Shown: positions 4,730 to 18,928 of the stretch, in pieces
How positions within the stretch are numbered: the first letter of the stretch is position 1
Layout of the letters: each line of letters opens with the position of its first letter
Source of the DNA: Paragemmobacter straminiformis
GTDB taxonomy: Bacteria; Pseudomonadota; Alphaproteobacteria; Rhodobacterales; Rhodobacteraceae
Direction: 5' to 3'
Length of the DNA stretch: 64,000 nucleotides
Assembly: GCF_014243445.1 (NCBI RefSeq)
Contig: NZ_JACLQD010000001.1
Location: 806,001 to 870,000 of the forward strand
Position numbers and translations under genes: made by a program
The notes under the pieces: model-generated
What the model was told of the DNA's origin: nothing
The model's input: only the letters and a program-made list of their open reading frames with translations
The model's database searches: none

Positions 4730-5782
4730 TTACCCCCGCACCAATGCCTCGCCCAGCAGTCGCGCGTGGTCGGGATGCGGCTTCAACCTGCCCGCCTCGA
4801 TCTCGAGCGCGATTTCGACGACGCGGCGGTTGACCGGCGCGTCCTGACCATGCGCGCGCAGGATATCGACGACCCATCCGTTGACCTCTTGCACCTCGGC
4901 GCGGCGGCCTTTGCGCCAGTCTTGCAGCGATGTCGTCAACGTATCCTCGCGCGAGAAGGTGCGCAGCACCTCGGCAAAGATTTCATCGACGTAGCGTTCG
5001 GGGTGGTTGCTCATCACCGGCGGCATCCCGATGATCGGCATGACCGTCGCCCCGTCGGCCAAGGCGGCGCGCATCGCCTCGTATCCCGCCTCGCGCATCA
5101 CCTCGAGCATGCCGGGCGCACGGGCGGCATCGTTCAGGGCGGTGTCGATGATCGCCGAAGGGATCAGTTCGGCGGCGTTCACCACCAGCTTCATCCATTT
5201 GGCCGAGCGGATATCCTCGACCACCTCGACCCGCCCCGAATGGCGCAGGATGTCGGCCACGCCCTCGACCCGGTGCTGCTGCGCGGGGTCAAGCGCGCCC
5301 AGCGCGAACCAGCTTTCGTCATGGTCGTTCTGGCGGTTCGTGACGCCCGGCACCCACATGTTCGATGCGATCTCGATCACCGCGCCGATGGTGCGGTGGC
5401 GACCGACGACCGAGGCGATATCCTCGTGCGTCATGCCGTTTTGCAGGCCGATCAGAAAACCGTCCTCGGCCAGAACCGACTTGGCAAGGTGGCTTGCCCA
5501 GACCGTGTCATAGGCCTTGACCACCAGAAAGATCAGATCGAAGGGCTGCTTGATCTCGGCCACCTGACAAAGATGCAGGGCGGGCACCTGCACGTTGAAG
5601 CTGCGCGTCGGCATGTTGACCGTGATGCCCTTCTCGCGGATCGCTTCGATATGGGCGGGCCATTGGTCGATGAAGGTCACATCGAGGCCCGCTGCGGCGA
5701 AATCGGCGGCGATAGAGGCCCCCTGCGCGCCGGTGCCCAGAAAGGCGATGCGGGGAGAGGTGGTCGTATCGGCTGCGGACAT
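4730..5782 (-). CDS. Ketopantoate reductase (ApbA/PanE) family oxidoreductase
   Basis: The protein has 350 residues. An N-terminal Rossmann fold starts PRIAFLGTGAQGASIAADFAAAG (GxGxxG at about residues 16-21), followed by FDLIFLVVKAYDT and IGLQNGM, both typical of ketopantoate reductases. A helical C-terminal domain contains SAKWMKLVVNAA with the conserved lysine, and EVQEVNGWVVD. True PanE makes pantoate for CoA. This copy is somewhat longer and sits 10 bp downstream of the intradiol dioxygenase in a catabolic operon, so I infer reduction of some other 2-keto or 2-oxolactone intermediate. NADP use is expected from the family but not proven here. Confidence 0.85.
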   Translation of the reverse strand: MSAADTTTSPRIAFLGTGAQGASIAADFAAAGLDVTFIDQWPAHIEAIREKGITVNMPTRSFNVQVPALHLCQVAEIKQPFDLIFLVVKAYDTVWASHLAKSVLAEDGFLIGLQNGMTHEDIASVVGRHRTIGAVIEIASNMWVPGVTNRQNDHDESWFALGALDPAQQHRVEGVADILRHSGRVEVVEDIRSAKWMKLVVNAAELIPSAIIDTALNDAARAPGMLEVMREAGYEAMRAALADGATVMPIIGMPPVMSNHPERYVDEIFAEVLRTFSREDTLTTSLQDWRKGRRAEVQEVNGWVVDILRAHGQDAPVNRRVVEIALEIEAGRLKPHPDHARLLGEALVRG

Positions 5783-5792
5783 GGCGGGATTC

Positions 5793-6662
5793 CTATGCTT
5801 TGGTCGCTGCGCTGCGGTTCAACACGAAGTCGAATTCGGACCGCCATTTCGTTTCGCCGCCGGTCACCCTGTGGAAAGGGGCGATCAGGCTTTCCTTGAC
5901 GCCGAACACCGCGTCGGACGTCAGGTAGTCGTCGCCCGCCACGAAGGTGTGGGTCACCACGGTGTCGAACCCGTCGCGGCTGACGATGAAATGCATATGC
6001 GCGGGCCGCCACGGGTGCCGCCCCAGCCGGTCCAGCAATTGCCCCACGGGGCCGTCATCGGGGATGGGGTATGAGACCGGCTTGATGCCCCGGAAGCTGT
6101 AGCGCCCGTCCGCCCCCGTCACAAAGACGCCACGGTTGTTGTGGGCGGGCTGCACATCGGGTTGCTGCACATCGTAGAACCCGTCCTCGTTGTCGGACCA
6201 CACATCGATGCGCGCGCCAGACAGAGGAGCGCCGTCGATATCGGTCACGCGCCCTTCGAACAGGCAGGTTTCGGCTCCGCCCGCCTTGGTGATCGTGGCG
6301 CCCATCGGGTATTCGGGCACGCCGTCGACATGAAAGGGGCCAAGCACCGTGTTTTCCGTCGCACCCGTGGGGCGGCGGTTGTTGATCGCATCGACCAGCA
6401 TCGACACGCCCAGCACATCGGAAAGCAGGATGAACTCTTGCCGGTTGCCGTCGCACATCTGCCCCGTGCGGGTCAGAAAGCCGATGGCCGCCTCCCATTC
6501 GGGCTGGGTCAGGGAAACGTCTTTCACAAAGGCATGCAGATGCGCGACAAGGCGCGACATCACATGGGCAAGACGCGGGTCGGTATCGGCCCCGATCCGG
6601 CCATTCACCGCCGCGACCGATCCGGCTTCGGTGAAATATTCGAGGGTCGTTGCGCGGGTCAT
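5793..6662 (-). CDS. Intradiol ring-cleavage dioxygenase (catechol / hydroxyquinol 1,2-dioxygenase type)
   Basis: The protein has 289 residues. The N-terminal helical dimerisation part (about 1-95) is followed by the beta-sandwich catalytic domain. Candidate ferric iron ligands are visible: Tyr in GFYDVQQPD, Tyr in PVSYPIPDDGP, and two His in RHPWRPAHMHFIV. The block TENTVLGPFHVDG is diagnostic of catechol/hydroxyquinol dioxygenases. The enzyme opens an ortho-dihydroxylated aromatic ring between the hydroxyls, giving a muconate or maleylacetate-type product. Its place inside a sugar-type import operon is unusual and suggests that a ring formed from an imported compound is cleaved. No maleylacetate reductase or muconate cycloisomerase is in the window. 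Confidence 0.9.
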   Translation of the reverse strand: MTRATTLEYFTEAGSVAAVNGRIGADTDPRLAHVMSRLVAHLHAFVKDVSLTQPEWEAAIGFLTRTGQMCDGNRQEFILLSDVLGVSMLVDAINNRRPTGATENTVLGPFHVDGVPEYPMGATITKAGGAETCLFEGRVTDIDGAPLSGARIDVWSDNEDGFYDVQQPDVQPAHNNRGVFVTGADGRYSFRGIKPVSYPIPDDGPVGQLLDRLGRHPWRPAHMHFIVSRDGFDTVVTHTFVAGDDYLTSDAVFGVKESLIAPFHRVTGGETKWRSEFDFVLNRSAATKA

Positions 6663-6751: not shown

Positions 6752-9277
6752 TCAGGTCTTGGTCTGGCTTCGCGCCGTCGAGTAGATCAGCGCGGCGGCA
6801 AGGATCAGCACGCCCTGAAACACGTATTGATAGGTCTGCGACAGGCCAAGGAAGGACACCGCGTTCAGCACCTCGGTCAGCAGCACGGCGCCCATGACGG
6901 TGCCGATAAAGGTGCCGCGCCCGCCGCGCAGGCTGGTGCCGCCCAGAACCACGGCCGTAATGCTGGCAAGCGTGTAGCTGACGCCTTGCTGCGGATCGCC
7001 CACGCCGATCTGCACCATCAGCATCACCGCACCCAGCGCCGTGCAAAGCGCCACGGCGATGTATCCGGCAATCGCCACCCGGTCCACGCGGATGCCCATC
7101 CGCCGGGCCGACCCTTCGTGCGAGCCGATGGCGCGCAGCTGCCAGCCCTGCCGACTGTAGCGCAGCCCGTATTCCGCCGCCAGGGCCACCGCCACCAGCA
7201 CGATGAACGCCACCGGAATGGGCCCGAGCTTCCAGCCGATGAAATCCATCACCGCAAAGTTGATATAGCCGTCCGGCCCGTCGCGCAGCACGAAGCTCAT
7301 CCCCTGAAGGCCGATGTACATGGCAAGCGTGGCCGCGATCGGCGTGAAATTCGCAAAGCGGATGAGCAGGCCGTTGACCGACCCCACGACCAGCGCGCCA
7401 AGGACCATCAGCGCAAAGCCAAGCGCGATGGTCTGCGGCGACTGCCCGTCATTGATGAAGAACGAGGCCACGACGACAAGAAACCCCGCCAGCGGCCCCA
7501 CCGAAAGGTCGATCCCCCCCATCAGCAGCGCGATGGTCTGCCCCATCGCGATAAAGCCGAGCGCCGTCGCAAGCAGAAGGATGTTCGAGATGTTGAAGGC
7601 GGAAAAGTAGTTGCCGTTCTGGCTGAAGACATACAGCCCCAGCAGGGCGATCACGGCGGCAAGCGGGGCGACAGTCGCGTTGTCGCTTTGGATGAAGCTG
7701 CGCAAACCGCGCGCCGCGGGGCGCGGGCTTTGGCTTGGCGCCGCTTGGGCCAGATGCGTCTGCGCCTTGACCGCCGCCGCGACGATGCGCTCTTCGGTCA
7801 CGGCCTCGCCGGTCAGGGTTTCGGCAACCCGCCCCCGCGACATGACGATGACGATGTCGCACAGCCCTTCGAGTTCGGCCGCGTCCGAGGAATTGACGAT
7901 GACGGGCGTGCCCGATTGCGACACCTCGCGCAGGATGCGGTAGATTTCGAACCGCGCGCCGACATCGACGCCCTGCGTCGGCTCGTCCGCCAGAATGAAG
8001 CCCGGGCGCGACATCAGGGCGCGCGCCATGACAACCTTTTGCTGGTTGCCCCCCGACAGCGACAGGATGGCGGCATCCAGCCCCGGCGATTTGACGGCCA
8101 GCGATCCGAACAGGCGGTTCACCTCGGCCAGTTCCGAACGGCGGTTGACGATCCCGAGACGGCTGAGCTGGTCGAGGGCGGAAAAGGTCGCGTTCTCGCG
8201 CACGGTCAGGTCGGCGATGATGCCTTCCGAGTGGCGGTCCGAGGGCATGTAGGCCGTGTTTTGCCGCACCTGCGCCGCCGTCAGGGCGGTGCCGTTCAGC
8301 CTGACTTCGCCGGTCCATGCCTCAAGCCCGGCCAGCGCCCGCATCACCTGCGCCTGCCCGTTGCCTTCGACCCCCGCGATGCCGATGATCTGCCCGCGAC
8401 CGACGGCAAAGCCGACATCGTGGAATTTCCGTCCCGACAGGCCGCTCACGGCGAAATTCGGTTCGGGCGCGGCTTGGGCGCATTTGGGCGGAAAGGCCGA
8501 TGCCAGACTGCGCCCGACGATCATCGCCATCAGATCGTCGTCGGTCACATCGCGCACCAGCGCGCCGCCTTCGACCCGTCCATCCCGCAGCACCGTGACG
8601 CGATGCGCGATCTGGCGCAGTTCGGCAAGCCTGTGGGTGATGTAGATCACCGCCGTCCCCTTGGCCACGATGGCGCGGATGCGGTCGAACAGCATTTCGG
8701 TTGCATCCTGATCGAGCGCGGCCGTCGGCTCGTCAAGGATCAGCACAGGCGGGCGCGTCGCCAGCGCCTTGGCAATTTCGAGAAGGTGCTTTTGCGCCAC
8801 CGTCAGCGCGTCGGCCCGCAGGTGCAGCGCAACATCCAGACCGACATCGTCCAGCATGGCGCGTGCGATCGTATCGGGCGCGGCCCCTTCGAAAACGCGC
8901 GCGGGCAGCGCCACGCGCAGGTTTTCCAGCACCGACAGATCGTCCAGCACCGCCGGATGCTGGTACGAGATCGAGACCCCGAGCGCTGCCGCCTTTTCCG
9001 GCGACATGGGGCTTACGGTCACGCCGTCGAATTCCACGCTTCCCTGTTCGGGCGTCAGAACCCCGGCGATGATGTTCATCAGGGTCGATTTTCCGGCGCC
9101 GTTCTCGCCAAGGATGGCATGGACTTCGCCCGGATGGATATCGACCGACACGTTCGACAGCGCGGTGACGCCGGAAAAGACCTTGGTAATTCCTGACAGG
9201 CGGATCTTCGGCGCGACCAATGCGGCGACGGCGGCATCCTGCAATTGCATGTCGTTCATGGGGGCTACCTTGGGCAT
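6752..9277 (-). CDS. Fused ribose-type ABC importer: double ATPase plus permease in one chain
   Basis: A protein of about 841 residues combines RbsA- and RbsC-like parts. ATPase domain 1 has GENGAGKST and LILDEPTAALD, with a degenerate signature (LTVAQKH). Domain 2 has the degenerate Walker A GVEGNGQAQ normal for this family, then LSGGNQQKVV and ILADEPTQGVDVGAR. After residue about 530 a BPD_transp_2 permease follows with several membrane helices, the EAA-like loop GSHEGSARRMGIRV and GGTSLRGGRGT. ATPase and permease are usually separate proteins. A second, unfused permease (10414-11445) and a binding protein (9360-10421) complete the importer, so the membrane part may be a heterodimer. The start at 9277 has AGGA 6 nt upstream; ATG 9259 is an alternative. 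Confidence 0.9.
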   Translation of the reverse strand: MPKVAPMNDMQLQDAAVAALVAPKIRLSGITKVFSGVTALSNVSVDIHPGEVHAILGENGAGKSTLMNIIAGVLTPEQGSVEFDGVTVSPMSPEKAAALGVSISYQHPAVLDDLSVLENLRVALPARVFEGAAPDTIARAMLDDVGLDVALHLRADALTVAQKHLLEIAKALATRPPVLILDEPTAALDQDATEMLFDRIRAIVAKGTAVIYITHRLAELRQIAHRVTVLRDGRVEGGALVRDVTDDDLMAMIVGRSLASAFPPKCAQAAPEPNFAVSGLSGRKFHDVGFAVGRGQIIGIAGVEGNGQAQVMRALAGLEAWTGEVRLNGTALTAAQVRQNTAYMPSDRHSEGIIADLTVRENATFSALDQLSRLGIVNRRSELAEVNRLFGSLAVKSPGLDAAILSLSGGNQQKVVMARALMSRPGFILADEPTQGVDVGARFEIYRILREVSQSGTPVIVNSSDAAELEGLCDIVIVMSRGRVAETLTGEAVTEERIVAAAVKAQTHLAQAAPSQSPRPAARGLRSFIQSDNATVAPLAAVIALLGLYVFSQNGNYFSAFNISNILLLATALGFIAMGQTIALLMGGIDLSVGPLAGFLVVVASFFINDGQSPQTIALGFALMVLGALVVGSVNGLLIRFANFTPIAATLAMYIGLQGMSFVLRDGPDGYINFAVMDFIGWKLGPIPVAFIVLVAVALAAEYGLRYSRQGWQLRAIGSHEGSARRMGIRVDRVAIAGYIAVALCTALGAVMLMVQIGVGDPQQGVSYTLASITAVVLGGTSLRGGRGTFIGTVMGAVLLTEVLNAVSFLGLSQTYQYVFQGVLILAAALIYSTARSQTKT

Positions 9278-9359: not shown

Positions 9360-10421
9360 TTACTGACCGACGGCTTTGGCCTGCGCGTCATCGGCCATCT
9401 CGGCCGACAGGTAGATCGAGCCGGGCAGATCGTCGCGGCAGGTCACGGGGTTCGGCGAACCCGAGACCGAGTCCTCGTAGACCGGAGCCTTGAAGATGTT
9501 GTCCGCCGGCGGCGTGCCGTCGGTGGCAAGGGCGACAGCCCATTGCACGGCAAGACGCACGTTGTCGTTTCCGGTCGCGACCGTGAACAGCTTGAAGTCG
9601 GGGTTGGCTTCGTGGTTCTGCGCCCAGAAGCACGACAGCGAGTTGCCGTCCGAGGTGGCGATGGCAGGGATCGACCGCTTGAACTCGGCAAAGACCGGCA
9701 GCGCACCCACCAGCGAGGGGCCGAAGTCGGACACGATCACGTCGATCTTGTCGTTCTTGGCGATTTCCGCCGAAAGCACCTGCTGCGTCAGCGACGGGTC
9801 CCAGTTGGTGACGGCAAAGGGCTCGGGGTTGATGAACTTGTATTTGTCATCAAGCACGGTCTTCATGCCTTCCAGCTCGTCCAGACCCTGGCTGTTGCCG
9901 GCAGGGCCGGAAAGGAACAGGATGTTGCCGCCGTCGGGCAGGTTCGCCTTGATCCAGTTGCCCCAGCTCTTGCCGTCCTCGACAAAGGACGAGCCGATGA
10001 ACTTGGCGTAGTTCACGCCTTCCTCGCCGCCGACGTCGACGCGGTAGGGAACCACGATGGTCCCTGCGCGATGCGCGTTGGTAAGCGCGGGCAGCACGGC
10101 CGGACCGGCATCGCCAAAGACGACCATGGCGTTGATCCCGCGTGCCGCCATCGAGTTGATGTCCGAAATGGCCTTCTGGGTGTTGCCCTGACCGTCGGCA
10201 TATTCATACTGCGTGATGCTCGGGCATTTTGCGGCCTCTTCGGCACCCGAAGCGGTGGTCACAAGGCGCCAGCTGTTGCCGCCGAAGCCGTCGAGCAGGG
10301 CAAGCGAGGCTTGCTTCGGCCCGCACCACGACGGGGTTTCGGCCAGCGCGGTGGTGGCGGTCAGCGCCGTGGTCAGGGTGGCCGCCGCGATTGCAAGCGA
10401 CATGATCTTGGTTTTAGACAT
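9360..10421 (-). CDS. Periplasmic sugar-type solute-binding protein (CUT2 / RbsB-like)
   Basis: The protein has 353 residues. A signal peptide is clear: MSKTKIMSLAIAAATLTTA followed by an Ala-rich stretch ending ALA before ETPSWCGPKQ. The mature part has the Peripla_BP_4 pattern: SLALLDGFGGNSWRLV, then QKAISDINSMAARGINAMVVFGD, VVPYRVDVGG, ILFLSGPAGNSQG and IDVIVSDFGPS. It captures the substrate for the importer encoded on both sides. Start ATG 10421 has GGAGG 9 nt upstream and overlaps the preceding permease gene by 8 bp. Extra cysteines at the start (WCGP) and near the C-terminus (VTCRDD) could form a disulfide. The substrate is unknown; the neighbouring enzymes suggest a cyclic polyol, sugar acid or glycoside. 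Confidence 0.92.
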   Translation of the reverse strand: MSKTKIMSLAIAAATLTTALTATTALAETPSWCGPKQASLALLDGFGGNSWRLVTTASGAEEAAKCPSITQYEYADGQGNTQKAISDINSMAARGINAMVVFGDAGPAVLPALTNAHRAGTIVVPYRVDVGGEEGVNYAKFIGSSFVEDGKSWGNWIKANLPDGGNILFLSGPAGNSQGLDELEGMKTVLDDKYKFINPEPFAVTNWDPSLTQQVLSAEIAKNDKIDVIVSDFGPSLVGALPVFAEFKRSIPAIATSDGNSLSCFWAQNHEANPDFKLFTVATGNDNVRLAVQWAVALATDGTPPADNIFKAPVYEDSVSGSPNPVTCRDDLPGSIYLSAEMADDAQAKAVGQ

Positions 10422-11445
10422 TGTCCGTTTCCTCCGAGTTGGACTGTTGAGCACGTGTTATTGCGGACCGTTTCCAGCGGACCGAGTAGACGCCGATCCC
10501 GAACACCAGCGCCAAAGCCTGGATGATGGTTTGGGCAGAGAACGGCACTCCGACGGCAAGGGCGAACTGGCTGAGCTGGTTCAGGAAGAACGCCGCGACG
10601 ACCGTCGAAATCGGATAGCCCCGCCCCCCGAGCAGCGACGTTCCCGCCAGCACCACCACCGCGACCGATGGCAGAAGCAGACTGTCGCCCTGAAAGGCCG
10701 TGGGTTCGCGGGTGATGCCGGAAATCAGCACCCCTGCAAGGCAGTAGAGAAGCTGCGCAAGCACATAGGCCGCAGCCTGATAGCGCCGCACGGGCAGGCC
10801 CGCCGCATGCGCAGCAAGCGGGTTCGCCCCGATCGCCTCGAACCGGCGGCCCATGACCGTCGCCTTGAGCAGAAAGCTCACAAGGCAGGTGACGACCACG
10901 GCGAACAGAACCGAGTTGGGCAGGCCCAGCGTCTTGCCGCCGGCAATTTCGGCCATCAGCGGCGTCGTGATGCGCGGCACGCCGCCCGACACGGCAAAGA
11001 CAGCCCCGTAAAGCAGCGCGTTCATCCCGATGGTCGCGATGATCGCATTCAGCCGCATGACACCGACAAGGATGCCGTTCACAAGACCGGCCACCAGCGC
11101 GCAGCAAACCGCGATCAGGATCGAGCCGAAGAGCTGCGCATCGTTTCCGCCCGAAAGGTGGGTGGTTATGACAACCGCAAGCGAAACGCCGCCCGCCAGC
11201 GACAGGTCGAACCCGCCCTGCTGCACCACCAGCATTTGCCCCAGCCCGACGATGGCGATGATCGCCGCAAAGGGCAGGCTGCCCGACAGGCCGCCGACCG
11301 ACACGGCCGAGGGCGCAAAGACGGCGCAGACGACCAGCAGCACAAGTGTCGACAGCACGACCGTGGCAAAGCCGCGCGCGACCTTTACCTTTCGCCAGTC
11401 AAAGGCGTATCCCGCTTCCCGCGTCAGTCGGACCTCGTGCGCCAC
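10414..11445 (-). CDS. ABC sugar permease (BPD_transp_2, RbsC-like)
   Basis: This 343-residue membrane protein has about eight to ten hydrophobic segments. Family marks include GQMLVVQQGGFDLSLAG (the GGIDLSVG block), AGLVNGILVGVMRLNAIIATIGM, RRFEAIGANPLAAHAAGL in the cytoplasmic loop, and AGTSLLGGRGY. The start is GTG at 11445 behind a G-rich Shine-Dalgarno. The basic C-terminus ends in RWKRSAITRAQQSNSEETDNV-like sequence and overlaps the binding-protein gene by 8 bp. Together with the fused ATPase-permease it probably forms a two-permease channel. Confidence 0.9.
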   Translation of the reverse strand: MAHEVRLTREAGYAFDWRKVKVARGFATVVLSTLVLLVVCAVFAPSAVSVGGLSGSLPFAAIIAIVGLGQMLVVQQGGFDLSLAGGVSLAVVITTHLSGGNDAQLFGSILIAVCCALVAGLVNGILVGVMRLNAIIATIGMNALLYGAVFAVSGGVPRITTPLMAEIAGGKTLGLPNSVLFAVVVTCLVSFLLKATVMGRRFEAIGANPLAAHAAGLPVRRYQAAAYVLAQLLYCLAGVLISGITREPTAFQGDSLLLPSVAVVVLAGTSLLGGRGYPISTVVAAFFLNQLSQFALAVGVPFSAQTIIQALALVFGIGVYSVRWKRSAITRAQQSNSEETDNV

Positions 11446-11475: not shown

Positions 11476-12456
11476 TCAGGCGATTTCGAGCGTGATCTTC
11501 ACGGCCTTGGTCGGGTCCTTGCCCAGCTCATAGGCCGTGATCGCGTCGTCGAGCGCGAAGCTGTGCGTCTGGATCGGCGACAGGTCGATTCCCGTGCGCT
11601 CCAGAAAGCGGATGGCCCCCGGCCAGACACCGGGCGAGCCGATGCAGCCGCGCACGGTCAGATCCTTGATCTGGATCTTGCCCAGTTCGACCGGAATTTT
11701 CTGCCCGATGCTGATGCCGACCATCGAGACGAACCCTTCGGGGCGGGCATAGTCGAAGACATTGGCCAGCGATGACGGGTGGCCTGCGGCTTCCACCACC
11801 AGATCGGCGCCGCCCTTGGTCATTTCGGTCACGGCCTCCACCGCATCGCCCTTTGACGGATCGACCGTGCCGACCGCGCCCAGTTTCATCGCGATCTCGC
11901 GCCGCAGCGGCACCGGATCGACCACGATCACCTGCGCCCCCATTCCGATGGCCGCCGCCGCCGAGACAAGCCCGATGGTCCCGCCCCCCGAAACCACCAC
12001 GGTTTGCGAGGCATTGACCCCGCCGTGCCGCAGCACCGCGTAATAGCCGCAGGTAAAGGGTTCGATCAGCGCGCCCTTGGCATCATCGACCGCATCGGGC
12101 AGCTTGTGCAGCCATTCGGGACGCGCGGCGAAGAACTCGCGGTTGGCCCCGTCCATCGAGAAGCCGAAATGGTGGATACGCTCGGGCGTGCGGATCACGC
12201 ATTCGCCCACCACACGGTCACCGCGCTGCAAACCCTTGACGTTGCGGCCCACCTCGACCACCTCGCCCACCCATTCATGGCCGGGGGTGACGGGGTAGGA
12301 AATCGGGATGATGTATTTGCCCGCAAGCAGTTCGTAATCCGAATGGCAGATGCCGACGCGGCGCGAGCGGACCAGAACCTCGTTGTCACTGATCGACGGG
12401 GTCTGGATATCGGTGACAACGGGCTGGTTCGGCTTGTCGAAGATAAGGGCTTTCAT
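11476..12456 (-). CDS. Zinc-dependent alcohol dehydrogenase (MDR, sorbitol-dehydrogenase-like)
   Basis: The protein has 326 residues. The catalytic zinc site is visible as GICHSDYELLAG (Cys about 37), PGHEWVGEVVEVG (His-Glu) and ALIEPFTCGYYA (Glu). The NAD-binding domain has VVVSGGGTIGLVSAAAA and VIVVDPVPLRREIA, with Asp after the second strand indicating NAD. The structural-zinc loop with four cysteines is absent. This type oxidises secondary alcohols of polyols or sugars. It lies between the permease and the Gfo/Idh/MocA gene with 30 and 15 bp spacers, inside the operon. Confidence 0.88.
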   Translation of the reverse strand: MKALIFDKPNQPVVTDIQTPSISDNEVLVRSRRVGICHSDYELLAGKYIIPISYPVTPGHEWVGEVVEVGRNVKGLQRGDRVVGECVIRTPERIHHFGFSMDGANREFFAARPEWLHKLPDAVDDAKGALIEPFTCGYYAVLRHGGVNASQTVVVSGGGTIGLVSAAAAIGMGAQVIVVDPVPLRREIAMKLGAVGTVDPSKGDAVEAVTEMTKGGADLVVEAAGHPSSLANVFDYARPEGFVSMVGISIGQKIPVELGKIQIKDLTVRGCIGSPGVWPGAIRFLERTGIDLSPIQTHSFALDDAITAYELGKDPTKAVKITLEIA

Positions 12457-12471
12457 GATCTGTCCTCGTCC

Positions 12472-13479
12472 TTAGGCAACGGTTTCGATGCGGCCGCTTG
12501 TGGCCGAGCGGAACACGGCCTCCAGCAGTGCGATGTTGTTGACCAGATGCTCGCCGGTGACCGGATAGGCATCGCCGCCGCGCACCGCGCGGGCAAAAGC
12601 CACAAGATTGTCCTTCACCGGTTCGGCCTTGCCGATTTCGCGGGTCACGATCGGGCCGCCCGCCATCGCGCTGGTCACGATCCAGCCGTCAGGCGCTTCG
12701 ACATGCGCCTTGTCGCGGATGTCGATCCAGCCTTTCGACCCGTAGACCGTGAAGCGCGACATGAACGGGTTGGCAAGCGAGGCCGAGACATAAGAGGTGC
12801 CACCCCCCTTGAACTTGACAAAGGCCGCCACCGTGTCGCCCTGCGGCAGGTCGGATGACAGTTGCTCGCAGATGCACAGCACGCTTTCCGCAGCACCGAG
12901 CAGCCGCACCGACAGGTCAAGCAGGTGAATGCCCGTCGCCGTCATGCCGCCCGCAGGGGCCTGATCGGCCTTGAGCCGCCAGTTGTCGCGGGCCAGCGAC
13001 AGGAATTTGTCATGGCTGAAATTGGCCTCGATCTGGTGGATGCGCCCCAGCGTTCCGGCATCGGCCATCGCCAGAAGATCAGCCACGGGCGGCTCGAACC
13101 GGCGTTCATGGCCCATGCCCAGCACCAGACCCGCCGCGTGGCACAGGGCGACGGAACGCTCGGCCTCGGCCTTGGTCAGCGCCAGCGGCTTTTCGCAAAA
13201 GACATGCTTGCCCGCCGCCACCGCCGCCGCGATCTGGGCGGTGTGCATGGAATGCGGGGTTGCCAGAACCACCGCCTCGACCGCCGGATCGTTCAGCGCG
13301 TCGGCATAATCGGCCGAAAGCGCCACGCCCTTCGACGCGCAAAGCTCGCGCACCGTTTCAAGGTTCGGCTCGACCGCCCGCACCACGCGGATATCGGCAG
13401 GCGCGGCCTGTAGCACGGCCAGCATCTTCTGGCCCCACCAGCCCATGCCCACAAGGGCGATGTTGACGGGATTGCTCAT
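12472..13479 (-). CDS. Gfo/Idh/MocA family dehydrogenase
   Basis: The protein has 335 residues starting MSNPVNIALVGMGWWGQKML, a GxGxxG Rossmann fold. It continues with the family block HVFCEKPLALTKAEAE, containing the catalytic lysine of EKP, and a C-terminal alpha/beta dimer domain with GGMTATGIHLLDL (the GG...D..H block) and YGSKGWIDIRDKAH. Such enzymes oxidise hydroxyls of sugars, inositols and other cyclic polyols with NAD(P). The start at 13479 overlaps the YciI gene by 4 bp, pointing to translational coupling. The next gene starts 15 bp after its stop. Confidence 0.9.
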   Translation of the reverse strand: MSNPVNIALVGMGWWGQKMLAVLQAAPADIRVVRAVEPNLETVRELCASKGVALSADYADALNDPAVEAVVLATPHSMHTAQIAAAVAAGKHVFCEKPLALTKAEAERSVALCHAAGLVLGMGHERRFEPPVADLLAMADAGTLGRIHQIEANFSHDKFLSLARDNWRLKADQAPAGGMTATGIHLLDLSVRLLGAAESVLCICEQLSSDLPQGDTVAAFVKFKGGGTSYVSASLANPFMSRFTVYGSKGWIDIRDKAHVEAPDGWIVTSAMAGGPIVTREIGKAEPVKDNLVAFARAVRGGDAYPVTGEHLVNNIALLEAVFRSATSGRIETVA

Positions 13480-13763
13480 GTCCGGTTGTCCACGCGCTTG
13501 GCAAAGGGACGGATCGACACGGTTTTCCACAGCCCGACCTTGGCAAAGGGGTCGTTGCGGTTGAAATCCTCGACCTCGGCCAGAGAATTGGCTTCCAGCA
13601 CGAAGCAGCTGCCGATCATGGTCTGTTCGTCATCGGCCAGAAGCGGGCCGGAAATCACCGTCTTGACCGGTGCCGCAGCCAGATAGGCCTTGTGCGCGTC
13701 ATAGTTCGCAAGCCGTGTTTCGACGGCCCCCTCGTGATCGAGGCAGTGGACAACGTAATGCAT
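13476..13763 (-). CDS. YciI-like (YCII domain) small protein
   Basis: This 95-residue protein has the YCII pattern: MHYVVHCLDHEGAVETR, then NYDAHKAYLAAA, then GPLLADDEQTMIGSCFVLEA, then VEDFNRNDPFAKVGLW and an IRPF end. The fold is a dimeric ferredoxin-like barrel; relatives include muconolactone-isomerase-like and dehydrochlorinase proteins, with the conserved His/Asp pair in the first helix region present here (DAH). In an operon with an intradiol dioxygenase it could act on a lactone or enol intermediate, which is inference. Confidence 0.85.
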   Translation of the reverse strand: MHYVVHCLDHEGAVETRLANYDAHKAYLAAAPVKTVISGPLLADDEQTMIGSCFVLEANSLAEVEDFNRNDPFAKVGLWKTVSIRPFAKRVDNRT

Positions 13764-13780: not shown

Positions 13781-14851
13781 TTACGCGGGAATGATCTTGC
13801 GCGCGCGCAATTCGTCGAAAACGTCGGTAAAGCTGCTGCGGGTGGACTGATACGCGTCAAAGCCAAGCGTGCGGCTGTTGGTCATGTCGGTGAAACATTC
13901 CAGCGTCCGGCCAAGGTCGGCGTCGCTGTGCCACCACGAGGCCAGCTTATCGACCGCAATGTCCTGCAAGCCGTGCTTGGCGACGATCTCGGCCCAGATC
14001 TTGGGCGCGTCGGCCATCTGCTCGACCAGCAGCGTCGGCTTGCCGGGGTGTTCGGCGACAGGCAGGCCGAAGTAACCGGCGATCTGCTGCCACAGCCATG
14101 TCCAGCGGAAGACATCGCCGTTCGAGGTGTTGAAGGGCGTGTTCGCCGCCTCGGGCGTGGTCGCGGCCCACATCAGCTGCTTTGCCAGCAACCGCGCATC
14201 GGTCACATCGGTCACGGCGTTGTATTGTTCGGTCGAGCCGGGGTAGACAAAGGGCCGCCCCGTGTGCTTGCAGATCGAGGCATAGACCGCCAGCGTCACC
14301 GCCATGTTCATCGCATTGCCGATGACAAAGCCGATCATCGTATGCGGGCGATGCACCGACCATGTGAAGCCGCGCTTTTCGGCCATTTCGAACAGAACGT
14401 CTTCCTGCGCGTAGTAGAAATTCAACCCCGGCAGGCGCGGGCTGCTTTCGAGGAAGGGCGTATAGGGCTTGACCTTGGCGTAGTCGTCGAACGATCCGAG
14501 GTAATGCTTCAGCCCCGTCACAAGGGCGGCATGTTTGACCGGCGCGCCGTCCAGCCCGTCGAACAGGTTGCGGATCATCGCGGCGTTGACGCGGACGTTT
14601 TCGGCCTCGTTCGCCTGCCGCGACCATGTGCAGAAGAAAACATGGGTCACATCCTTGGCCGCCGCCAAGGCAGCCTTGGTGCCTGCCGCATCCTGAAGAT
14701 CGGCCGCGATGTGGCGGTCGGAAAATTCAAGCTCTGCTGCCCCGCGCGACACGGTCACGACCGTCCAGCCATTGGCTTTCAACAGGCGTCCGGCATAGCT
14801 GCCCGACAGTCCCGTGGCCCCCACGATCAACGCTACGTTCTTGGTGTTCAT
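13781..14851 (-). CDS. PRISE-type short-chain dehydrogenase (progesterone 5-beta-reductase / iridoid-synthase-like)
   Basis: The protein has 356 residues. It opens MNTKNVALIVGATGLSGSY, an extended-SDR Rossmann motif, and carries the marks of the PRISE family: ALVTGLKHYLGSF (TGxKHYxG, with the lysine and histidine of the atypical site), LNFYYAQEDVLFE (the YYxxED block with the catalytic tyrosine) and SVHRPHTMIGF. PRISE enzymes reduce activated C=C double bonds of enones with NADPH rather than hydroxyls. The family is best known from plants; bacterial members are usually annotated only as SDR or NAD-dependent epimerase. Spacing to neighbours is 17 and 32 bp, within the operon. The substrate is unknown. 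Confidence 0.85.
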   Translation of the reverse strand: MNTKNVALIVGATGLSGSYAGRLLKANGWTVVTVSRGAAELEFSDRHIAADLQDAAGTKAALAAAKDVTHVFFCTWSRQANEAENVRVNAAMIRNLFDGLDGAPVKHAALVTGLKHYLGSFDDYAKVKPYTPFLESSPRLPGLNFYYAQEDVLFEMAEKRGFTWSVHRPHTMIGFVIGNAMNMAVTLAVYASICKHTGRPFVYPGSTEQYNAVTDVTDARLLAKQLMWAATTPEAANTPFNTSNGDVFRWTWLWQQIAGYFGLPVAEHPGKPTLLVEQMADAPKIWAEIVAKHGLQDIAVDKLASWWHSDADLGRTLECFTDMTNSRTLGFDAYQSTRSSFTDVFDELRARKIIPA

Positions 14852-14883: not shown

Positions 14884-15951
14884 TCAGGTGGTGACAAGGA
14901 TCTTGAGATGTTCGCCCGCCGGGTCGAGCAGCGCCTCGAACCCTTTGGCGACGACATCCTTGGCGTCGATGCGGGCGGTGATGACCTTTTCCACGGGGAA
15001 ATTGCCCGCAGCGATCATCCGGGCGATGCGCGGCCAGATCTGCGTCGGGTAGCACCATGTCGCTTCCACGGTGATATCCTTGAGCGCCCAGAGCATCGCG
15101 TCGATGCTTGCAGGCTTCATGTGCAGACCCACCTGCACCACCCGCCCTTGACGGCGCACCGCCGCGACACATGTGTTGAGCGAGGCTTCGAGACCCACGC
15201 ATTCCAGCGCCACGTCAACGCCCACGCCCTCTTCTGTCAGATCGGCTACAATCTGCGACAAATCTCCGCTTCGGGGATCGACGACGATGGCATAGGGCGC
15301 GATGTCCTTGATGATCCGGCGGCGGTTGGGGTTCGGCTCGGACACGATGACCAGCGCGGCACCCGCCGCATGGGCCGCCAGAACCGTCAACGCGCCGATG
15401 GGGCCTGCCCCCGAAACCAGCACGGTCGATCCGGCGGTCACGCCGCCCCGATCCACGCCGTACAGCGCCACGGCGGCCGGTTCGATCATCGCGGCCTGAT
15501 CGTCGGTGATGTTGTCGGGCACGGGCTGGGCGTTGTAATCCTTGATCACCGCCTTTTCGCCCATGCCGCCCCAGGCCCAGCTAAGCCCCACGCAGCCCAT
15601 CACGGGCGACAGGTGGAACAGCCCGCGCTTGCCGTAATAGTCGTTGCGCGGCGACAGAAGCGGCTGGATCGAGATGCGGTCGCCCGCCGAAACATGGCTT
15701 ACGGCATCGCCAACCGCCAGAACCCGCGCCGAAAATTCATGGCCCAGAATCTGCGGATTGGTGGCCCCGGTATAGACATGCGGCTCTTTCGGCGTGACGA
15801 TCGGGCCTGCCAGATATTCATGCAGATCGGTGCCGCAAATGCCGGTTACCGCAGGTGCGATAAGCACATCATCGGGCGCCAGTTTGCCCGAAGGCTCGGC
15901 CACATCCTCGACCCTGATATCCCGCGCACCGTGGAAACGGACTGCCCGCAT
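14884..15951 (-). CDS. Zinc-dependent alcohol dehydrogenase (2,3-butanediol-dehydrogenase-like)
   Basis: The protein has 355 residues. It begins MRAVRFHGARDIRVEDV, with GICGTDLHEYLAGP (catalytic Cys) and NPQILGHEFSARV (His-Glu), and the coenzyme motif VLVSGAGPIGALTVLAA. A segment PRNDYYGKRGLFHLSPVMG takes the place of the structural-zinc loop and has no cysteine cluster. The 2,3-butanediol / L-threonine / sorbitol dehydrogenase branch fits best. ATG 15951 is chosen because AGGAGG stands 8 nt upstream; the frame is open further to 16002. It is the first gene of the eleven-gene operon, opposite the divergent dehydrogenase-regulator pair. Confidence 0.88.
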   Translation of the reverse strand: MRAVRFHGARDIRVEDVAEPSGKLAPDDVLIAPAVTGICGTDLHEYLAGPIVTPKEPHVYTGATNPQILGHEFSARVLAVGDAVSHVSAGDRISIQPLLSPRNDYYGKRGLFHLSPVMGCVGLSWAWGGMGEKAVIKDYNAQPVPDNITDDQAAMIEPAAVALYGVDRGGVTAGSTVLVSGAGPIGALTVLAAHAAGAALVIVSEPNPNRRRIIKDIAPYAIVVDPRSGDLSQIVADLTEEGVGVDVALECVGLEASLNTCVAAVRRQGRVVQVGLHMKPASIDAMLWALKDITVEATWCYPTQIWPRIARMIAAGNFPVEKVITARIDAKDVVAKGFEALLDPAGEHLKILVTT

Positions 15952-16263
15952 CGCCTTATCCTCCTGTCTTGTCACGACCGCACGCGTTTTGCGTTGCGTC
16001 ATGTTCTACCCTAGCGCCCTGCCGTCTGCGCGCATCAGCCCGAAAGGATGGGCCTTGCAAATCGCCGGTCACGGTTTCGGTACAACATCCGCCTCGCATC
16101 GCGCCGGACCCCTCCGGTCCATCGGCCACGACTCACTCCCTTGATCCATCGATACCAAACCGGATCGGGCAGGTCGGACCGAATTTATTCGTTTCGGATA
16201 AATTGAAAACGGAAGCGCCGAAGCGACCGCCTATGTTGGCCCCACAGGGGAGCGAGGTGGGTT
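15952..16263. other. 312-bp divergent control region
   Basis: This is the spacer between the first gene of the minus-strand operon and the plus-strand dehydrogenase-regulator pair. It holds the 23-bp palindrome at 16182-16204 and a short GGACC/GGTCC dyad (about 16110-16125). I see no good sigma-70 hexamers and no open frame of its own. Confidence 0.6.
16182..16204. promoter_or_regulatory. 23-bp palindrome, candidate operator of the catabolic region
   Basis: The arms AATTTATTCG (16182-16191) and CGGATAAATT (16195-16204) are inverted repeats with one T/G mismatch, around a TTT centre. The site is AT-rich in otherwise GC-rich DNA and lies 60 bp upstream of the plus-strand dehydrogenase and 230 bp upstream of the minus-strand operon. 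Binding by the regulator at 17198-18928 is inference. Confidence 0.6.
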
Positions 16264-17193
16264 ATGGATTCGAAATTCGCTGCGGACGCGCGCGCAGGTG
16301 CCGCGGGCAAAAAGATCGGCTGGATCGGGGCGGGCAAGATGGGCGCCCCCATGATCCGCAATCTTCTTGCCGCCGGAATTCCGGTTTCGGTGTCAGAGCC
16401 GAACCCTGCGGCGCAGACAGCGCTTGCGGCAGCGGGTGCAACGGCGGCGGGCGATTTGTCCCCGATCGACGGCGCCTCTATCGTTTTCGCGACCCTTCCC
16501 AATGACGAAGCCCTGCGCATGGTCGTCGCGGGCACGCAGTCCGCCAAAGGCGTGGCCGAACGTCTGGCCCCCGGCAGCGTGCTGGTCGAGATGAGCACGG
16601 TTTCACCCGAATGCTCGGCCGAAGTTGCGAAAATCCTTGATAAAGCGGGCATTTTCTACGTCCGCGCGCCCGTATCGGGCAGCACGACGATGGCAGAGAA
16701 AGCCTCGCTCACGATCCTTGCTTCGGGTGCGTCGCAGGGGTGGGACGCCGCCTTGCCCTTGCTTGGTCTTTTGTCGGCCCGCCAGTTCTGGCTCGGCGCG
16801 GGCGAGGAAGCGCGCTACATGAAACTCGTCCTCAACACCCTCGTCGGCGCAAGTTCGGCCATTCTGGCCGAGGCCGTGGCCCTTGGCGCAAGCGGCGGTC
16901 TCAGCCGCGCCGCGATGATGGAGGTGATCTGCGAAAGCGCCGTCGCCTCGCCCCTGTTCAAATACAAGACCGATCTGGTGGTTTCCGAAGATTACACCCC
17001 CGCTTTCACGATCCAGCAGATGATAAAGGATTTCACCCTGATCAGCGATGCGGGCCGCAGCAACGGCGTGCCGCTGATGACGGCGGGGCTGATCCTCGAA
17101 CTTTACCGCACGGCGGCGAATGCAGGATTGCAAAACGAGGATTTCTTCGCTTTGGTGAAATGGCATTCTGGGATTTCCGCACAACAGGGCTGA
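16264..17193 (+). CDS. 3-hydroxyisobutyrate-dehydrogenase-like NAD(P)-dependent oxidoreductase
   Basis: The protein has 309 residues. The Rossmann motif KIGWIGAGKMGAPMIRNLL is followed by VFATLPND, the substrate block RAPVSGSTTMAEKASLTILASG and, after the domain linker, ARYMKLVLNTLVGASSAILAEA with the catalytic lysine. This is the beta-hydroxyacid dehydrogenase family (3-hydroxyisobutyrate, tartronate semialdehyde or 6-phosphogluconate type). A GAGGTGGG Shine-Dalgarno precedes ATG 16264. The HTH-binding-protein regulator starts 4 bp after its stop, so the two are co-transcribed. It probably oxidises or reduces a hydroxyacid made by the divergent operon. Confidence 0.88.
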   Translation: MDSKFAADARAGAAGKKIGWIGAGKMGAPMIRNLLAAGIPVSVSEPNPAAQTALAAAGATAAGDLSPIDGASIVFATLPNDEALRMVVAGTQSAKGVAERLAPGSVLVEMSTVSPECSAEVAKILDKAGIFYVRAPVSGSTTMAEKASLTILASGASQGWDAALPLLGLLSARQFWLGAGEEARYMKLVLNTLVGASSAILAEAVALGASGGLSRAAMMEVICESAVASPLFKYKTDLVVSEDYTPAFTIQQMIKDFTLISDAGRSNGVPLMTAGLILELYRTAANAGLQNEDFFALVKWHSGISAQQG

Positions 17194-17197
17194 ACCG

Positions 17198-18928
17198 GTG
17201 CAGCAGATCAATCCGACCCACGCGCCCACACCCGAACTGACCGCGCACGAGTTGTCGCGGATCGTGGATTTCCTTCGGAAACTCCGCGCACCCTTCGATT
17301 CGGGCCTGCCCGGCGCGGCCAAGGACGTTTACTGGAACGTCGTGCTCGAGCTGGTCGACAGCCACCTGCGGCGCAAGCCCATCGACAAATCGGGGCTGAT
17401 CACCCTGGCCGGCGTGCCCTACAGCACCGGAAACCGGATGATCGCCAAGATGATCGAGGACGGGCTGATCCGGCAGGTGCCGCGCGGAGGCGGGCTCAAG
17501 ACCCATTTCCTCGAACCGACCGACACGCTGCTGCACAGCTTCATGGAATACGCCACCCATGTGAAAGGCCACCTCGCCAAGACCTTCGGCCTGCGCAAAG
17601 GGGCCGAGGCGAACGAATACTACTTTGGCGGCAGCTATTTCGCGGCGCAGATCATCTCGCCCGTCCGGGGCGACGACATCGCGGGCAAGGTTCCGGGCGA
17701 CATCCGCTTTTTGCTGAACGACGACAACTACTTCTCGTCGATGCGCAACCTCTGGTCCGATTTCCGCAACGACCTTGGCCGGAAAAGCAGCTTCGATCTG
17801 CAACGCCTGCCCGATCTTTACGTCAATTCGCAAAGCTATTTCGAAAAGCCGACCGCCGAATATGACGTCATCTCGATCAACATGCCGTGGTTGGGCGAGT
17901 TTGCCGAAAAAGGCTACCTCGCCCCGCTCGACGATCTTTTGCAGGACGCCGCGATCAACCCGCTCGACTTCCACCCCTCGGTCTGGGGAACGGGAAACTG
18001 GAAGGGCACGCAATACGGCATCCCGCTCTATTGCACGATCGAGATCCTTGCCGCCCGCCGCGACCTGTTCGAGGACAAGGGGCTGACCTTCCCGCGCACC
18101 TTCGACGAAACCATTGCCGCGGCCCGCGCCCTGCACCGCCCCGCATCGGAATTCTACGGCATCGCCTGGAACGGACAGCGCGGCATGCCCATCGCAAACT
18201 CGTTCATGTTCTTTCTGGCCGCCTGCCAAAAGACCATCATCGACATGCCGCTGCACAATCAGGAAAGCTGGGTCTTTCCGAAATTCGAAAAGCTCAAGCT
18301 GCAAATCGACACCGTCGATGCGGTCGAGGTGATCGAATACATGAAGCAGCTCGTCGAGGTCTCGCCCCCCGACATCGAATTCATGGATTGGGAAAAACGC
18401 ATCCAGTGCTTCATGTCGGGCCGTGCGGGTCTGGCCTATTGCTGGACGATGCGCGCGGCACGGTTCGAGCATGAACTCAGCTCGCAGGTCGCGCGCCGCG
18501 TGGCCTATCTTCCGCCCCCCTCGCGCCGCCTGCGCCGGATCGCGGCCCCCATCGGCGGCTTCCTGATGACCATTCCCGCCTCGGTAAAGCCCGCGCGGCA
18601 AAAGCAGATCATGAACGCGATCACATGGATGGTCTCGCCCGAGGCGATGAAGGCGCATGTCAAGAACGGCTTCCCCGTGGCGCCGCGCTTTTCCGTCTGC
18701 GCCGACCCCGAGGCGCTGGCCTCGTCGCCCATCGTGAGCATGGTCGACCAGCTCGCCCGCCGGAACGAGCTTGTCACATGGGCGCGCCCGCCGATTCAGG
18801 AATTCAGCCTGATCGAACGCATCCTCGGCGCCGAAATCCACGACGCGGTCTTCCACGGCAAGCCCGCGCGTCAGGCGCTGCGCGATGCCGAAAACAGCAT
18901 CCTCAGCGCGGTCAACAGCGCAGGCTAG
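17198..18928 (+). CDS. Winged-HTH / family-1 solute-binding-protein fusion, probable one-component transcription regulator
   Basis: This 576-residue protein starts with GTG 17198. Residues about 45-110 form a winged HTH: VYWNVVLELVDSHLRRKPID, then LITLAGVPYSTGNRMIAKM as recognition unit and IRQVPRGGGLKTH as wing. Residues about 165-560 are a family-1 solute-binding domain: YDVISINMPWLGEFAEKGYL, QYGIPLYCTIEILAARRDLF, YGIAWNGQRGMPIANSFMFF and GRAGLAY. No signal peptide or membrane helix precedes it, so it should be cytoplasmic. It aligns end to end with the protein at 710-2488 (shared blocks QYG(V/I)P, (I/S)WNG.RG, GRA.(M/L)AY, IHD at the C-terminus). It is 4 bp downstream of the dehydrogenase gene and opposite the catabolic operon. 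I infer that it senses the imported compound or a catabolite in the cytoplasm. Confidence 0.8.
   Translation: MQQINPTHAPTPELTAHELSRIVDFLRKLRAPFDSGLPGAAKDVYWNVVLELVDSHLRRKPIDKSGLITLAGVPYSTGNRMIAKMIEDGLIRQVPRGGGLKTHFLEPTDTLLHSFMEYATHVKGHLAKTFGLRKGAEANEYYFGGSYFAAQIISPVRGDDIAGKVPGDIRFLLNDDNYFSSMRNLWSDFRNDLGRKSSFDLQRLPDLYVNSQSYFEKPTAEYDVISINMPWLGEFAEKGYLAPLDDLLQDAAINPLDFHPSVWGTGNWKGTQYGIPLYCTIEILAARRDLFEDKGLTFPRTFDETIAAARALHRPASEFYGIAWNGQRGMPIANSFMFFLAACQKTIIDMPLHNQESWVFPKFEKLKLQIDTVDAVEVIEYMKQLVEVSPPDIEFMDWEKRIQCFMSGRAGLAYCWTMRAARFEHELSSQVARRVAYLPPPSRRLRRIAAPIGGFLMTIPASVKPARQKQIMNAITWMVSPEAMKAHVKNGFPVAPRFSVCADPEALASSPIVSMVDQLARRNELVTWARPPIQEFSLIERILGAEIHDAVFHGKPARQALRDAENSILSAVNSAG

Follow-up and report, generated by a model that had tools for sequence, protein, structure and literature searches.

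SgrR of Escherichia coli carries a solute-binding domain of the SBP_bac_5 type, GntR-SBP fusions occur in Firmicutes, LysR-type regulators are often divergent from their target operon, and small MarR proteins have their ligand pocket at the dimer interface. SgrR (PMC4021124) and DsvR of Vibrio cholerae (PMC13060122) are both carbon-supply regulators that join an N-terminal helix-turn-helix (HTH) to a C-terminal solute-binding domain in a single chain, in DsvR of the SBP_bac_5 type, and LysR-type regulators combine a winged HTH with a PBP type-II fold (PMC5882156). Artificial benzoate and glucose sensors have been engineered by joining PBPs to DNA-binding domains (PMC6079105). Furthermore, a survey of binding proteins states that SBP profiles also match the sensor domains of transcriptional regulators (PMC9602780), hence SBP-type sensors are already in print in general terms and a fusion to a family-1 domain is a variant, not a new principle. 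No regulator with an HTH and a family-1 binding domain appeared among the titles and abstract openings listed from an open-access library, outside which lie most subscription journals and domain databases that may list the architecture.

Here we describe such a protein, called the regulator below, encoded in a 64,000-nucleotide stretch of Paragemmobacter straminiformis, the whole of which was analysed and is referred to as the window. Our preferred reading, with a probability of roughly 0.8, is that it is a dedicated cytoplasmic one-component regulator of a CUT2 import and catabolism operon, with an internalised binding protein as its sensor, bound to a divergent palindrome array. Architecture, conservation, genomic context and the array itself were established by computation.

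The locus can be placed against each of the described systems. SgrR and DsvR have the same design of HTH and solute-binding domain in one chain, but their sensor fold differs. A winged HTH (wHTH) and the PBP type-II fold are shared with LysR-type regulators, whereas the regulator has a full-size maltose-type domain of ~400 residues. The MarR family has the N-terminal fold and a palindromic site in the divergent region in common with it, but the sensor here is a separate 400-residue SBP domain instead of a dimer-interface pocket. Family-1 binding proteins such as Arad_9887 (5iai) have the fold of the sensor domain, at 25% identity; the regulator, unlike these, has no export signal, as a rule no CUT1 partner, and a fused wHTH. 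The engineered chimeras embody the same design idea, whereas the regulator is natural, conserved and accompanied by its own likely operator. New are the family-wide divergent layout beside CUT2 permeases and the palindrome with flanking half-sites in the divergent region.

The regulator gene and its neighbours

The open reading frame (ORF) of the regulator has a GTG start 4 bp past the end of a dehydrogenase ORF, and the coordinates given for it in the initial annotation are correct. The genes concerned are as follows.

17198–18928, + strand: regulator, MarR-type wHTH fused to SBP family 1, 576 aa (ORF, Pfam, alignment, AlphaFold2, fold match)
17327–17518, + strand: winged HTH, residues 44–107 (AlphaFold2, Foldseek)
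17705–18925, + strand: complete family-1 solute-binding fold, residues 170–576 (Pfam, AlphaFold2, fold match)
16264–17193, + strand: 3-hydroxyisobutyrate-dehydrogenase-like enzyme, 309 aa, presumed to open the transcription unit of the regulator
14884–15951, − strand: zinc dehydrogenase, first gene of the divergent operon (ORF may begin at 16002)
13781–14851, − strand: PRISE/SDR-like oxidoreductase
13476–13763, − strand: YciI-like protein, 95 aa
12472–13479, − strand: Gfo/Idh/MocA oxidoreductase
11476–12456, − strand: zinc-binding dehydrogenase
10414–11445, − strand: CUT2-type permease (BPD_transp_2)
9360–10421, − strand: periplasmic CUT2 binding protein (Peripla_BP_4), signal-peptide-like start
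6752–9277, − strand: 841-aa protein joining a CUT2 double ATPase to a second permease
5793–6662, − strand: intradiol ring-cleavage dioxygenase

Identification of the operon genes, among them the Peripla_BP_4 protein, bears out the earlier claim that the regulator is divergent from an import and catabolism operon with its own CUT2 binding protein. Loktanella keeps this operon almost gene by gene, with a maleylacetate reductase added and a regulator 80% identical to ours. The catabolic part is also found on Sinorhizobium and Rhizobium plasmids, the Rhizobium version being without a transporter within the fetched stretch, and the order of dehydrogenase then regulator recurs on plasmids of all three genera. 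A gene equal in length to the 841-aa ATPase/permease fusion is present on Loktanella plasmid plas1.

A sugar-type importer operon that ends in an intradiol dioxygenase was seen both in the window (4730–6662) and at a second locus (L197, 1696–3632), and may channel a cyclic polyol or phenolic glycoside into ring cleavage. The dioxygenase, the maleylacetate reductase of relatives and the several dehydrogenases suggest ring cleavage as the fate of the imported compound. For the operon proteins that were compared with NCBIfam, every match was under cut-off, and a search of an open-access library listed nothing apt on the pathway.

Domain architecture and predicted fold

The AlphaFold2 model of the regulator, built with 51 relatives, had a mean pLDDT of 84.9. 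Its wHTH comprises helices at residues 44–57, 64–71 and 75–87 and a two-strand wing (91–95 and 103–107), directly followed by a long helix (109–130) and a poorly predicted linker (131–168, with a weak stretch at 146–166). R80 and P107 of the wHTH are invariant across the family alignment A2. Modelled separately, the N-terminal domain reached a pLDDT of 90.5, and its best Foldseek match was 7kfs (E = 7e-5, probability 1.00). The 50 solved matches listed are of MarR type, some by name and the remainder presumably so; the MarR matches had TM scores of 0.42–0.60 by query and rmsd of 6.8–13.6 over the listed alignments. A SlyA/MarR protein was also top-ranked in a profile search with this domain (E = 0.0011).

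Pfam detected the wHTH less readily. MarR_2 scored 12.3 bits in the regulator against a cut-off of 27, matched 27 of 50 family N-terminal domains scanned alone at E ≤ 0.1 (best 8.5e-7), and matched just four of 51 A2 proteins scanned full-length at E ≤ 0.001. The solute-binding part matched SBP_bac_1 (E = 6.3e-19) and SBP_bac_8 (E = 3.8e-18), as did all 51 A2 members, the regulator included. Among solved structures its closest sequence match is 5iai_A (E = 5.7e-33, query 175–563), which we take to be a ribitol complex, and 5iai is again the closest solved fold (TM 0.88 by target length).

The initial annotation had claimed a wHTH at about residues 45–110 followed by a complete family-1 binding domain, and had named any other N-terminal fold as grounds for abandoning its reading. 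The predicted MarR-type wHTH at 44–107 agrees with the first claim, as do the SBP_bac_1 and SBP_bac_8 matches and the fit to 5iai with the second, and the N-terminal fold is the one anticipated. The domain search that it had proposed was successful for SBP_bac_1 but left the wHTH of the regulator under the Pfam cut-off.

A match to an SgrR or SBP_bac_5 model was detected neither in the regulator nor in the 51 A2 members (Pfam, E ≤ 0.001). Membership of the SgrR family was rejected on this basis, the Pfam matches being to SBP_bac_1 and SBP_bac_8, and the earlier distinction from the family-5 type of SgrR holds throughout A2 (51 of 51 SBP_bac_1, none SBP_bac_5). Membership of the LysR family was likewise rejected, as neither the LysR HTH nor the LysR substrate domain was matched by the regulator or the A2 members in Pfam. 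With a sensor and a DNA-binding domain in a single soluble chain, the regulator is, by prediction, a one-component system.

Conservation is concentrated in the solute-binding part: of 164 columns with conservation of at least 85% across 82 rows, 136 fall there. This exceeds the need of a pocket alone, hence contacts with other proteins are possible, and the regulator could be a DNA-binding protein whose SBP domain has given up small-molecule binding and now just oligomerises or docks onto another protein, for instance the importer. We consider this improbable, as the two-lobed fold is complete, stretches in common with 5iai (DW and NGQxG, for example) are retained, and 39 of the 41 invariant columns of a further alignment (A1) fall in the SBP part.

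Distribution of the family

The first 158 residues of the regulator were matched in 80 of 390 genomes of the order at E ≤ 1e-5, its own genome included. We fetched 80 regions, made up of 79 matches to the N-terminal domain chosen from those listed and the window's second copy (below). These contained 85 ORFs with an N-terminal match, two genes being counted twice where regions L098 and L104 overlap, and 81 of the ORFs were at least 570 aa long. The other four measured 559, 404, 320 and 74 aa, those of 404 and 74 aa being two pieces at one locus. The fusion is thus a recurring, conserved architecture (81 of 85).

Beyond the order, tblastn at E ≤ 1e-3 located 552 stretches encoding a relative, possible non-fusions included, among 84,980 species genomes. 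Going by record titles, the best 80 of these came from Rhodobacterales, from rhizobia and their relatives, and in a few cases from elsewhere, for example Acidisoma and a Rhodospirillales MAG. In class and phylum samples thinner than that of the order, matches were obtained in nine of 385 genomes at E ≤ 1e-40 (eight full-length fusions and one, G453, with the SBP part alone) and in 15 of 398 genomes at E ≤ 1e-30 (six full fusions, nine with the SBP part alone). Full fusions also occur beyond the class (G889, locus L226) and on a Paraburkholderia plasmid (L202).

A possible single origin of the fusion was examined with a tree of 42 rows (27 fused, 15 secreted), which needed two changes between the fused and secreted labels. 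Its starred branches force just one change, and 14% of bootstrap trees have one. The tree is disturbed by a long-branch join between the Paraburkholderia fusion, entered twice (L202_5 and L202_69), and the binding protein of the L116 CUT1 operon described below.

Annotation and localisation

A product name was given at the match in 26 of the 38 plasmid records that matched the N-terminal domain. It was ‘extracellular solute-binding protein’ in 25, a label that had been predicted from the sequence, and ‘ABC-type sugar transport system, periplasmic component’ in the remaining one. At E ≤ 0.001, the regulator matched no NCBIfam model, and two of the 51 A2 members matched MalE (best 4.4e-6).

The annotated names, together with the fact that the SBP domain alone is above the Pfam cut-off in the regulator, would suit a standard ABC-importer binding protein that is secreted and has a mis-called N-terminus. 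Against this, the N-terminal domain is conserved both in sequence and in predicted fold, and a signal peptide is not evident. On a hydrophobicity scale, which is a cruder measure than a trained signal-peptide predictor, the first 45 residues of the regulator contained no hydrophobic segment (best 12-residue mean 0.47), while the window's real CUT2 binding protein had a best 12-residue mean of 1.96. Across 143 family members the median N-terminal value was 0.92 and one member reached at least 2.0, compared to a median of 1.88 and 45 members reaching 2.0 among 156 CUT2 binding proteins from the same loci. Over whole chains, a 19-residue stretch with a mean of at least 1.6 was present in eight of the 143 members, and the highest 19-residue value of the regulator was 1.23. 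The absence of a signal peptide and membrane helix claimed in the initial annotation, for which export would have been fatal, is therefore in keeping with this scale, on which neither is evident.

Genomic context

We called genes with a simple codon-usage script, in its later version with pooled codon usage; the first version had largely reproduced the public annotation of Loktanella plasmid NZ_CP072995.1. Neighbours were classified with profiles, each grown from members with a verified Pfam match. Removal of 24 near-copies (95%) from 167 fusion genes, at loci chosen as best matches and not randomly, gave 143 nonredundant genes. Eleven of these, including the window's second copy, had less than 6 kb upstream and were left out of the neighbour counts, leaving 132.

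The fusion gene was divergent from its neighbour in 129 of 143 cases (12 were not and two lay at contig ends). Within 10 kb, a CUT2-type permease was present at 124 of the 132 loci, a CUT2-type binding protein at 121 and an ABC ATPase at 119; neither permease type was near the gene at eight. By comparison, the 36 BPD_transp_2 matches in the P. straminiformis genome represent 23 sites, such that about 12% of places would be expected, by hand estimate, to lie this near one. CUT1 permeases were found within 10 kb at three of the 132 loci, all beside CUT2 genes, and at five with a laxer threshold (E 1e-3). The CUT1 profile was grown from two seeds, both BPD_transp_1, and as a control it recovered permeases beside other family-1 binding-protein genes at six of 16 short loci, some as fragments. 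In this set the fusion thus recurs beside CUT2 import operons.

The 129 of 132 loci without a CUT1 permease (127 at the laxer threshold) also argue against a secreted importer component, as does the conserved palindrome in the adjoining promoter region. With the CUT2, not CUT1, context and the absent export signal, we rejected the idea of a misannotated secreted protein and regard it as extremely unlikely.

Six further loci, chosen from nine further full-length genes of the class and phylum samples, all had a CUT2 transporter adjoining the gene, which was directly divergent from it at five. At the sixth (L225) the CUT2 operon contains the regulator gene and is itself preceded by the palindrome, thus the palindrome goes with the promoter and not with the start of the regulator. 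Another clade of fusions (L200, L203) lies between a CUT2 operon and a unit encoding an M24 peptidase-like protein and a 2-oxoacid dehydrogenase complex; these neighbourhoods suggest that the family serves several pathways. In two small AT-rich genomes (about 1.4 Mb) from one genus of the class (L223, L224), the fusion is directly divergent from a CUT2 operon.

A palindrome array in the divergent region

The region between the two transcription units contains the following predicted elements.

16183–16203, no strand: predicted main operator ATTTATTCGTTTCGGATAAAT (inverted-repeat search, weight matrix, genome search)
16160–16168, no strand: predicted flanking half-operator at −29, CCGGATCGG (at least 5/6 matches in 16 of 22 close relatives)
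16218–16226, no strand: predicted flanking half-operator at +29, CCGAAGCGA (at least 5/6 matches in 17 of 22 close relatives)
16232–16237, + strand: −10-like TATGTT, presumed regulator-side promoter (conserved T, A, T at +39, +40 and +44, 18 of 22 each)
16148–16154, − strand: mirror −10-like TATCGAT, presumed divergent promoter (positions −39, −40, 21 of 22; −45, 18 of 22)

The main palindrome reads ATTTATCCG-N3-CGGATAAAT and is the sole match in both window and genome at up to three mismatches. An inverted-repeat search of divergent regions detected arms of the AATTTAT type in the window and several relatives, and from these we grew a palindromic weight matrix with 25 close rows, the window included, as the training set. 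All 25 training rows had a site (21 distinct sites, scores 28.7–38.8), whereas shuffles had a 99th percentile of 5.5 and a maximum of 11.5. Among 44 distant rows outside the training set (40–75% identity), 34 scored above 5.5 and ten were at shuffle level. Four of these ten, Mesorhizobium relatives (L162, L163, L164 and L165; 48% identical) with no site above shuffle level in the divergent region, may use another operator.

Among 22 nonredundant close relatives, CCG-N3-CGG occurs on either side of the main site at offsets of exactly −29 and +29, against a mean flank score of 1.75 out of 6 over all tested offsets and 3.00 at the next best offset. The distance from the main site to the called start codon on the regulator side was 61–103 bp, and 70–76 bp in 17 of the 22 rows.

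A wider core was counted in 125 divergent regions (129 minus four over 800 bp), with 520 other intergenic regions of the same loci as the control. TNTCC-N5-GGANA occurred 70 times in 60 of the 125 regions against 1.9 sites expected, a count that is not fully independent, as the core was read from part of the counted regions and the relatives are themselves related. Every other spacer from 1 to 11 gave one or two sites. The bare TCC-N5-GGA was found 164 times in 102 regions against 18.5 expected (23 regions were without it), and with spacers of 3, 4, 6 and 7 the bare core was also about twofold over the control. Adjacent sites across the family were most commonly 21 bp apart (15 pairs). The TCC-N5-GGA core was present at four of the six further loci; L223 and L224 were without it, and the operator of these two fusions may differ.

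A second fusion copy in the window

The window holds a second fusion near its edge.

710–2488, + strand: second MarR-wHTH and SBP family-1 fusion, about 30% identical to the regulator
573–587, no strand: palindrome resembling the operator, TGTCCAAATTGGACA, ahead of the second copy

This copy passes the Pfam cut-offs for both MarR_2 (28.0) and SBP_bac_1. Divergent from it is a CUT1 operon, most of which falls beyond the window (L116, 5412–11432). This operon encodes two BPD_transp_1 permeases, a family-1 binding protein of its own, a xylose-isomerase-like TIM barrel and an ATPase with a TOBE domain. Too little flank at the window's edge keeps this CUT1 neighbour out of the context counts above. 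The core of TGTCCAAATTGGACA occurs once in the window, which is not unusual by itself (0.46 expected), and the position of the palindrome suggests that the second copy starts at 710 rather than at a possible 572.

Proposed mechanism

From these results we infer DNA binding, ligand binding, allostery and a sign of control for the regulator. The MarR-type wHTH, presumably dimeric, would bind the palindrome at 16183–16203 and, with assistance, the half-sites that lie 29 bp away on each side, such that a single array would govern both promoters, that of the dehydrogenase and regulator unit and that of the CUT2 import and catabolism operon. The fused family-1 domain would act as the sensor, closing on a small molecule that resembles a polyol, sugar or cyclitol, either the imported compound or an early product, and closure would alter the DNA-binding state. 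The ligand class is a guess from the sugars and polyols bound by relatives of the fold and from the dehydrogenases and intradiol dioxygenase of the neighbourhood.

A scan found no sigma-70 consensus promoter near the main site, which makes the placement of the promoters weak, and with it the sign of control. Activated promoters commonly have no such consensus, and a variant of our preferred reading is that the regulator is a ligand-dependent activator of the LysR kind, working between the divergent promoters instead of repressing them. The 15 family pairs of sites 21 bp apart would suit activation, as would the resemblance to LysR regulators of a wHTH joined to a type-II binding fold (PMC5882156) and of the divergent layout. 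This variant appears less likely, since the array of the close clade is symmetric, with half-sites just upstream of both presumed −10 boxes, an arrangement that fits simultaneous repression better than activation. For the same reason we favour repression that is relieved by the ligand as the likelier sign, with activation as the alternative.

Implications

We think it probable that the regulator represents a large, unrecognised family of one-component regulators, which arose when an entire maltose-type binding protein, once secreted, was brought inside the cell and joined to a MarR-type wHTH, and which then spread as the dedicated switch for CUT2 importers. The uptake system would then be read outside the cell by Peripla_BP_4 and inside it by SBP_bac_1, with a TCC-N5-GGA code that Rhodobacterales share with one or more further classes of the phylum. 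Probably hundreds of genes annotated as ‘extracellular solute-binding protein’ encode transcription factors of importer operons. Reading such genes as regulators gives the regulator, its target operon and a likely operator together for many uncharacterised CUT2 uptake and catabolism clusters, and makes ligand discovery a matter of a gel-shift or reporter assay. Furthermore, the fusion offers a natural template for biosensor design, a binding protein already joined to a DNA-binding domain.
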